Shown piece by piece: positions 21,874 to 62,882 of a stretch of DNA of 64,000 nt. The translations under genes were made by a program, and so were the position numbers. The DNA lies in assembly GCF_029626235.1 (NCBI RefSeq), contig NZ_JARUBO010000005.1, forward strand, positions 2,884,501-2,948,500, written 5' to 3'. This DNA is from Micromonospora sp. WMMD1120 (GTDB taxonomy: Bacteria > Actinomycetota > Actinomycetes > Mycobacteriales > Micromonosporaceae). The notes beneath the pieces were generated by a model. It was given only the letters and a program-made list of their open reading frames with translations, was not told the DNA's origin and ran no database searches. Numbering within the stretch: position 1 is the stretch's first letter; every line of letters starts with the position of its first letter.

Positions 21874-22905
21874 TCAGCGGGGCCGGTAGTGGTCCACCTG
21901 GACCGCGACCGTCACCCGGACCGGCTCGGGCAGGGCGGCCAGCCGGCCGGCGAGGGCGCCCGGGTCGGTGTGCCAGGCGCTCGGACCCATCCCGACCAGG
22001 GTGGCGGCCTCCGTCCGGGTCAGGGCCAACTCCGCCCGGTGCGCCGTCGAGCTGGCATGCGTGAAGTGCCCGCCGAGGCTCGCGGTCACCCGGTCGGCCT
22101 TGTCCGGGGCCACCCGCAGCAGGCCGAGCGCTGTCACCAGCTCGGTGAGGTGGTCGGCGTCCGGCGTGACCACCAGCAGCGTTCCGGCCGGATCGAGCAC
22201 CCGGTGGAACTCCGCGCCGTTGCGCGGGGCGAAGACGTTCAGCAGCACGGCGGTGGAGGCGTCCGCGAGCGGCAGCCGCTGCCAGGTGTCGGCGAGCGCC
22301 GCCGCCGCCCGGGGGTGCGCGCGGGCCGCGCGGCGCAGCGCCGGCTTGGACACGTCCACTGCCAGACCCACGGCGTCCGGCAGCGCCGCCAGCACCGCGC
22401 CGAGGTAACGGCCGGTGCCGGCGCCGGCATCGACCACCAGGGGGTACGCCCCACAGTCCGCCTCCGGCGCTCCGACCCGTACCCCTGCTGTTGTGTCCTT
22501 TGCTCTGCTTACCTCCATGCGCCACCCCGCGCCGGCCGCTGGTGCGTCGGTGGGTGCAGAGCAAAGGGCGGAGGAGGGGGATGTGGTCGTCGCACGGAGT
22601 CGCGCGACCGCCTCGGTCGCGGCGGCGGCCAGCGCGGTCGCGATGACGTCGTAGTGCCCGGCGGCCAGGAAGTCGGCGCGGGCGGCGACCATCTCCGCCG
22701 TGTCGCCGGTGTGCGGCGCCCGACCGGCGAGCAGGTTGACGTAGCCCTGCCGCGCGATGTCGAAGCTGTGCCGGCGGGGACAGCGCAGCGCCCGGGTGTC
22801 GGTGGCCTGGTGGAGTGCCTCGCCGCAGACCGGGCAGCGCAGCCGGCGCAGGACCCGCGGGTTCAGGTCCGAGCGCGGCCGGTCCGAACTCCCGGGCGTG
22901 TCCAC
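21874..22905 (-). CDS. RlmA-like rRNA (guanine-N1)-methyltransferase with an in-frame repeat insertion
   Basis: The 343-residue protein has an N-terminal zinc ribbon (LRCPVCGEAL, then ALRCPRRHSFDIARQGYVNLL), as in 23S rRNA G745/G748 methyltransferases, and a Rossmann SAM-binding motif LVVDAGAGTGRYLG. RlmA proteins are about 270-280 residues. The excess is a roughly 50-residue segment just before the SAM motif, encoded partly by the palindromic element 22497-22567, which is translated as ALCSAPTDAPAAGAGW and on to EVSRAKDTTA. GTG 22905 has a TAGGCT hexamer (complement of 22913-22918) 7 nt upstream, a leaderless context, and is divergent from add. An intact frame suggests the protein is still made; activity with the insert is unknown. 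Confidence 0.88.
   Translation of the reverse strand: MDTPGSSDRPRSDLNPRVLRRLRCPVCGEALHQATDTRALRCPRRHSFDIARQGYVNLLAGRAPHTGDTAEMVAARADFLAAGHYDVIATALAAAATEAVARLRATTTSPSSALCSAPTDAPAAGAGWRMEVSRAKDTTAGVRVGAPEADCGAYPLVVDAGAGTGRYLGAVLAALPDAVGLAVDVSKPALRRAARAHPRAAAALADTWQRLPLADASTAVLLNVFAPRNGAEFHRVLDPAGTLLVVTPDADHLTELVTALGLLRVAPDKADRVTASLGGHFTHASSTAHRAELALTRTEAATLVGMGPSAWHTDPGALAGRLAALPEPVRVTVAVQVDHYRPR
22497..22567. repeat. Palindromic element (CCTTTGCTCTGC family) inserted in frame in a gene
   Basis: Perfect 12-bp terminal arms CCTTTGCTCTGC (22497-22508) and GCAGAGCAAAGG (22556-22567) enclose a 47-bp centre with a weaker inner GCGCCACC / GGTGCG pairing. The intergenic copy at 47429-47502 has the same outer arms and the same inner GCGCCACC arm. 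This copy lies inside the RlmA-like methyltransferase coding sequence without breaking it. Confidence 0.85.
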
Positions 22906-42418: not shown

Positions 42419-42458
42419 GGATGTAGTGGCCTCCGCGAGCCAGGAGGCCACTACATCC
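42419..42458. repeat. Perfect 16-bp hairpin element (GGATGTAGTGGCCTCC)
   Basis: Arms 42419-42434 and 42443-42458 are exact complements around an 8-nt loop, forming a very stable cruciform or RNA hairpin. Flanking AGATCCGCAC and GCACGATCT suggest an outer pairing like that of the other GATC-containing palindromic elements. Confidence 0.8.
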
Positions 42459-47428: not shown

Positions 47429-47502
47429 CCCTTTGCTCTGCACCCGCCCAGGCGCCACCTACCGGTCGTCGGGTGGCGCTTTCGCGGGTGCAGAGCAAAG
47501 GG
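47429..47502. repeat. Interspersed palindromic element (CCCTTTGCTCTGC family), intergenic copy
   Basis: Perfect 18-bp arms CCCTTTGCTCTGCACCCG (47429-47446) and its complement (47485-47502) enclose a second perfect 8-bp stem, GCGCCACC / GGTGGCGC (47452-47459, 47472-47479). It lies between convergent genes and can also function as a terminator. It is the intact relative of the copy inside the methyltransferase gene at 22497. Confidence 0.85.
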
Positions 47503-62682: not shown

Positions 62683-62780
62683 GCCTCAGCCTGTCGCCAG
62701 GAACACCCGAGCCGAATCCGGGACGCCCACCGAATTCGCCCCCCGGGACCACCCCTAGTCAGTGCCCGCGCCCCTACTTC

Positions 62781-62853
62781 CGCGATCTTGCACTCCGGAA
62801 CGTTGTTTCGCGGCATTCACACCATCTGTCGGGGCAGGAAGTGCAAGATCGCG
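62781..62853. repeat. Interspersed palindromic element (GATCTTGCAC family)
   Basis: Perfect 13-bp arms CGCGATCTTGCAC (62781-62793) and GTGCAAGATCGCG (62841-62853) are separated by 47 bp. The element shares the core GATCTTGCAC with the one at 40813-40881 and lies between two minus-strand membrane protein genes. Confidence 0.8.
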
Positions 62854-62882
62854 GGGGTCGGCCGGGGCGGGGAGGGGGGACG

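Follow-up and report, generated by a model that had tools for sequence, protein, structure and literature searches.

A palindromic DNA element stands in the reading frame of rlmA, an rRNA methyltransferase gene of Micromonospora, and is one member of a family of short repeats dispersed through Micromonosporaceae. The window, i.e. the whole 64,000-nt stretch of Micromonospora sp. WMMD1120 that was analysed, holds this copy at 22497-22567 (no strand assigned); it is 71 bp long with its 12-bp arms, both exact, or 69 bp from CTTTG to CAAAG. The account that we consider probable as a whole is that of a MITE-like repeat family with one old insertion in rlmA, the ends of which would have been kept host-like as far as the reading frame allows. 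The outer arm CCTTTGCTCTGC (22497-22508, plus strand) is the downstream arm on the coding strand and encodes the residues ...SRAK; the partner arm GCAGAGCAAAGG (22556-22567, minus strand) is the upstream arm and encodes (A)LCSA. Next to these arms, TTAC at 22509-22512 on the plus strand (GTAA on the coding strand, with the in-frame codon GTA, the frame being read directly from the sequence) is mismatched to ACCC at 22552-22555 on the coding, minus strand; ACCC is the arm subtype that this genome uses most often. The first-pass annotation called the element palindromic. Its outer arms are exact, but the stem is imperfect: at arm bases 12-15, TTAC faces the ACCC type. The same annotation had claimed read-through over about 24 codons in an RlmA-type gene, and the minus-strand rlmA frame is indeed open across the element. 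An intergenic copy with the same arms, announced at 47429-47502, is present at 47430-47501 (no strand assigned), with ACCC/GGGT arms, between two convergent genes. The observation of an in-frame palindrome in rlmA is confirmed.

The family was searched by exact arms, with a reversed-pattern control, in the genome of the window (G000, 7.15 Mb) and in its relatives, as had been suggested. The 11-bp arm occurs 37 times in G000 and the reversed pattern 0 times, and 34 of the 37 arms form 17 facing pairs with spans of 69-145 bp (12 pairs have exact 12-bp arms at 71-83 bp); this excludes chance as the source of the arm family, and the rlmA element, being one of the 17 pairs, is real. In G029, G034 and G003, arms also occur mostly as facing pairs, at most 171 bp apart, with few unpaired, the control pattern being found 2, 1 and 1 times, respectively. 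The facing pairs of these four genomes thus define the unit as a short element, fixed at both ends. Among named genomes, an exact scan gave at least 120 stretches, mostly from Micromonospora; among the matches listed, the other genera are Asanoa, Actinoplanes, Catenuloplanes, Catellatospora, Rugosimonospora, Verrucosispora and Actinoallomurus, and metagenome-assembled genomes with the element are labelled Pseudonocardia, Micromonosporaceae and Actinomycetota. Around the genome of the window, an exact-arm pair within the searched span occurs in 27 of 61 genomes, all Micromonospora (27/37, versus 0/24 for other genera). Copy number ranges from 0 to 18 per genome among those 61 and reaches 34 in G153. 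In Catellatospora tritici, at L116 5919-6012 and nearby, arm copies are nested and partly in tandem. Viral spread of the element was considered and rejected: the arm pattern has a single match in viral_contigs (L403 432-516), a tRNA-Asn gene in a contig of 47% GC, the acceptor stem of which resembles the arms, probably by coincidence.

A typical copy measures 68-82 bp (66-171 bp among listed copies) and is laid out as an outer arm of 11-12 bp, an extension at bases 12-15 that varies between species, an inner inverted motif at about bases 21-26 and a free centre. Bases 12-15 set the subtypes (TTCA, ACCC, AGCC, TGCA, TTAC and others), and the subtype is the same at both ends in 134 of 167 copies outside rlmA. 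Pairing was evaluated in 105 distinct 69-bp copies picked by exact outer arms, against 300 column shuffles that ignore kinship; the invariance of the outer 11 bases is partly circular, since the searches required exact outer arms. Pairing at bases 12, 13 and 15 is found in 98-103 of the 105 copies, versus column-shuffle means of 49-53, and positions 14, 21-23, 25, 31 and 32 also beat all 300 shuffles. At bases 16-20, 24, 26-30, 33 and 34, covariation in these copies is not above every column shuffle. Selection on the whole hairpin was rejected on the ground that only bases 12-15, 21-23, 25, 31 and 32 beat every shuffle. Self-correction of the hairpin as the source of matched arms is disfavoured, with bases 16-20 of the stem unmatched and the rlmA mismatch persisting across species.

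The gene that hosts the in-frame copy (21874-22866, minus strand) encodes an RlmA(II)/MyrA-like 23S rRNA m1G methyltransferase, composed of an RlmA Zn-ribbon and a methyltransferase domain; MyrA is the nearest NCBIfam model, with a score below the cut-off. In the database, the protein has 330 aa, which places a putative start at CTG (22866); the frame is open to 23085. The element encodes approximately residues 101-124 of this protein, before SAM motif I, and lies in an interdomain linker formed by residues 95-141 (22444-22584, minus strand). Chain 1p91_A (RlmA of E. coli) aligns in two blocks, separated by 7 residues versus 57 here. The first-pass annotation had spoken of an insertion of about 50 residues. 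From AGHYD to LVVD the linker counts 74 residues, versus 23-46 in most element-free relatives, so that the excess is about 30-50 residues, 24 of them from the element. Linker length varies between species, and armless relatives with linkers of 49-92 residues exist (e.g. G001, G017, G022, G102 and G132). Modelling had been proposed as a check for a surface loop. The structure model, built from 34 sequences, has a mean pLDDT of 53, lowest at residues 95-141, and residues 95-139 have no predicted helix or strand; the model is poor overall and was used only for the low confidence of the linker. The insert would merely lengthen a flexible linker, which the enzyme may tolerate.

The history of the insertion was followed in 160 genomes of the genus, 159 of which have rlmA. 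The linker was read at 72 loci: every one of the 37 that align in a single stretch, plus 35 more. Orthologues with and without the insert, the comparison called for at the outset, are both found among these 72 Micromonospora loci: both exact arms in 16, one arm in eight and none in 48, at least four of the armless genes being eroded remnants (G013, G030, G129 and G170, by eye). The motif-based parse accepted 71 loci (15 with both arms, 8 with one and 48 with none), each with a linker that is open and in frame, as the parse required. The sixteenth two-armed copy, in G147 (L369), was missed by the motif and is present in the linker, in frame and with an open frame. In an rlmA codon tree of 30 genomes, made before the wider set was added, four carriers fall in separate clades, and G024, G029 and G001, all without the element, each adjoin one carrier; the G000-G024 fork is below full support. 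A whole-locus tree that grouped the carriers differently was replaced by the rlmA codon alignment, because its flanks looked misaligned. The presence of the insert in species of separate clades makes it look old rather than recent.

Whether this distribution reflects one event or several can be weighed from the flanks. Carriers G000, G034, G064 and G062 have in common the right flank GAC(A/C)CAACA(G/C)CAG, and three of them have unlike arms in the same frame, with an alignable right flank (G034, TTCA/GTAA; G064, ACCC/GGGT; G062, TTCC/GGAA). The rlmA gene of G030 retains a decayed copy of G034-like sequence. Shared right flanks and the decayed G030 copy point to one old insertion, with repeated loss in frame, in that part of the genus, and the sequences fit this reading. 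Several independent insertions into a tolerant linker, which we consider improbable, would account for the scattered carriers and for arm types that track their hosts; linker length varies in rlmA without the element as well, and a second gene with a variable linker has been hit, in Asanoa. This alternative has against it that the rlmA copies read are all in the same frame, that the four carriers share a right flank despite unlike arms and that the G034-like copy of G030 has decayed in place. In the AGCC lineage (G100 and G087), the rlmA flanks show no clear alignment to those of other carriers, and a separate insertion into the same tolerant spot is possible there. Under the single-insertion reading, one copy would have entered the linker before SAM motif I, in frame and with all codons sense. 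Some lineages would then have retained the insert, whereas in others it would have been deleted or worn down without loss of the frame.

The arms of the rlmA copy tend to be those of the host genome. Among the copies listed, genomes mainly use one or two arm subtypes, with rather more in G000; G064 and G024 are nearly all ACCC-like, G087 and G021 are AGCC, G010 is TGCA, and G120 and G088 are TTCA. The rlmA copy of G064 is ACCC/GGGT in a mostly ACCC host. Those of G100 (AGCC/GGCT) and G087 (GGCT on the readable side) stand in mostly AGCC hosts, and the left arm is TTCA in G160, G140, G150, G120, G088 and G034, all of them mostly TTCA, and in G073, where the host is mixed TTCA/ACCC. In G000, at least one ACCC arm occurs in 10 of the 16 pairs other than the rlmA copy; the left arm of that copy is ACCC, as is usual in the host, and its right arm departs from the host type. 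Exceptions are the TTCC/GGAA copies of G062, where the type is shared, and of G153, where it is a minority type among the listed host copies. Intergenic copies, too, can differ in both ends at a single site (e.g. L043 versus L115, and L045 versus L133). Judged by these sequences, the arm subtype of the rlmA copy appears mostly to follow the host genome in those carriers for which other copies of the host were listed. A synonymous-codon test was not leaned on, as it is partly circular, its 23 genes having been picked for at least one exact arm. If the ends of carriers stay host-like, a genome-wide process would still be acting on the translated copy. Conversion between copies and selection by an end-binding factor are both candidates, and the data favour neither. 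A more specific proposal, which we put forward tentatively and hold to be rather less likely than its negation, is that the ends co-evolve with a species-specific DNA-binding protein, either a transposase or a chromosome-organising factor. The rlmA copy would then be both a working site and a piece of protein, and its arm subtype would be re-set with the specificity of the host unless a stop codon results.

Such a stop codon is at stake with TTCA, since its partner TGAA would read TGA in the rlmA frame. Ten rlmA copies combine a TTCA arm with exact outer arms on both sides; each of them has GTAA and none TGAA (0/10). Outside rlmA, TGAA partners the TTCA arm in 55 of 63 such copies (Fisher p = 7e-8). 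Counted by eye in six of the same TTCA-bearing hosts (for G160, among the copies listed), the figures are 0/6 in rlmA versus 58/64 elsewhere (p = 7e-6). Since the rlmA copies are orthologues, related by descent, those with GTAA do not count as 10 separate events, and both p values are too strong. GTAA may also be an ancestral TTAC arm left unchanged. Outside rlmA, at least six TTCA/TTAC hybrids were seen by eye, four of them in G073, G140 and G150 and others in G004 and G031. In the TTCC/GGAA copies of G062 and G153, the ends match again and no stop arises. We take the missing TGAA as fair evidence for translation of the rlmA frame, with the protein counting for more than matched ends. The reading frame would thus limit the process that acts on the arms, a TGAA arm not being seen in the rlmA copies read.

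Genomic context was called with a simple codon-based gene finder written for the analysis. Among the 120 copies examined, 55 lie between tandem genes, 34 between convergent and 14 between divergent genes, four are inside a gene and 13 are too near an end to call. The excess of convergent over divergent contexts (p = 0.0055) would suit an element that serves the host mainly as a terminator structure or as a hairpin in mRNA, the rlmA copy being a chance relic. Long stems are predicted in the 17 G000 copies, flanks pair outward (runs of at least five in 21 of 162 copies, versus a shuffled mean of 3.0 and a maximum of 8) and several relatives carry other hairpins at orthologous intergenic sites. 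We nevertheless regard this reading as unlikely. Intrinsic terminators combine a GC-rich hairpin with a T run, and here the flanks are C-rich on the left and G-rich on the right with few T, the share of which is 2-21% at each of the 15 right-flank positions nearest the element. The bases without covariation above shuffles leave much of the stem with no sign of selection for pairing, copies also occur inside genes and between divergent genes, and the element ends are specific in sequence, beyond what termination would call for. Rfam has no match to the element at the gathering score; sub-threshold mir-511 matches to the hairpin occur in three of 17 loci.

Other hairpins share the intergenic space with the family. 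At the L007 site of G000, the flanks form a palindrome with 8-bp arms that is split by the element, whose orthologous position in G017 is taken by a plain hairpin; this suggests that some copies may have entered terminator loops. An imperfect palindrome with GCGATCTTGCACT arms (62773-62861) resembles a hairpin at the orthologous L007 site in G019 (L265) and may represent a second dispersed hairpin family. At 42419-42458, the 16-bp arms of a perfect inverted repeat, GGATGTAGTGGCCTCC, enclose a loop of 8 nt, and a related GTAGTGGCATCC hairpin is found in G008 (L245), at the site orthologous to the 47430 copy. Further hairpin families, with the motifs TTGATCAAGAGGTTTGCGTC... and AAGGAAGGGCCCCTTNTTAACGC..., neither of which was found in the window, occupy orthologous intergenic sites in several of the loci L236-L251 and L296-L311. 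It is as if such intergenic sites collected hairpins. A cobalamin riboswitch (L010 1198-1374) lies about 130 bp from an element copy.

The element is best filed as a MITE-like palindromic repeat of Micromonosporaceae. Like bacterial MITEs, it is short, contains no gene, has terminal inverted repeats, varies in copy number and is present or absent at orthologous sites, as in rlmA and at the L004 site, where G029 and G000 have the element and G002 has closely similar flanks without it. It differs from bacterial MITEs in that neither a target duplication nor a parent transposase was detected. Adjacent or near direct repeats are not in excess at 162 copies, and divergence could hide a target site duplication. 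No facing pair at transposon distance occurs in G000, G029, G034 and G003 (the last three multi-contig drafts), nor any far-apart arm pair in the fetched loci of at least 1.5 kb. With no transposase, autonomous copy or target duplication found, it is the distribution that speaks for mobility. The first-pass suggestion that the element can move and create protein inserts accordingly agrees with the dispersed copies, their presence or absence and the inserts in rlmA and Asanoa, whereas the rlmA insertion itself looks old. Copies would arise by insertion, mostly between genes, and be removed by deletion. Most likely, they are non-autonomous repeats spread, once or still, by an unseen enzyme.

A REP element moved by a RAYT, i.e. 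a Y1 tyrosine transposase, would also be palindromic, mostly extragenic and abundant, with tandem and convergent contexts, and Y1 and the element coexist in genomes such as G029 and G002. This origin is highly improbable. Y1 occurs in 15 of 61 genomes; among these, G006, G011, G014 and G016 have no element. Conversely, G000, G034 and G003 lack a Y1 match despite their 12-15 pairs; moreover, the element ends are symmetric and no GTAG or CGTC tag marks one end. A resident RAYT is excluded for G000 at the sensitivity of the search, Y1 presence being unlinked to copy number.

Among the small mobile sequences of enterobacteria, RU-1 (127 bp) is ERIC. In-frame palindromes had been presented as known from Rickettsia. 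This holds for RPE, of which the accessible text describes palindromic families of about 150 bp both between genes and, as an extra segment, in frame inside unrelated protein genes (PMC10969869). It is too narrow in that, by the accessible parts of the sources, REPs lie inside ORFs of several species, such as recB of Xanthomonas (PMC3733652), and enterobacterial RU elements have intragenic copies (PMC2759123). Like RPE, the present element is found between genes and in frame in protein genes, with an insert in a conserved gene that is missing from shorter orthologues (rlmA and the Asanoa oxidoreductase). It differs, by description and not by sequence, in being about 70 bp long and mostly intergenic, with few genes hit. 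Four of 120 copies are in a gene, three of them outside rlmA and two of these at a 3′ end, and, in another difference from RPE, the ends vary by host, with the in-gene copy tending to follow. REPs, as far as the accessible text goes, are alike in being small palindromes in tandem or convergent contexts, with in-gene inserts relative to shorter homologues (PMC3733652); the present element is longer, with symmetric ends, no GTAG/CGTC tag and no Y1 transposase in G000. The likeness to RU elements is one of description only and spans two phyla.

Among the other in-gene copies, that of Asanoa siamensis (L109 3248-3315) is in frame within a GFO/IDH/MocA oxidoreductase, three relatives of which have linkers of differing length at that place; this insert is independent of that in rlmA. 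In G035, an element copy forms the last residues of another protein. No account of such elements was found in the actinomycete literature, chiefly open-access, in agreement with the first-pass statement that none was known from Micromonospora-type actinomycetes. The accessible text of the M. lupini genome paper (PMC4182475) gives no account of the family, and the arm sequence used as a literature query returned, among the matches listed, papers unrelated by title.

The element thus adds a segment to a conserved rRNA-modifying enzyme in antibiotic producers and stays there in species of several clades. As the divergence of the in-gene copy tends to parallel that of the host copies, without the arm that would write a stop, it offers a natural test of pressure on DNA ends versus pressure on protein. 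It also gives a starting point in the search for the protein by which the family is recognised or spread. If a co-evolving binder does exist, one DNA stretch would be under two codes.
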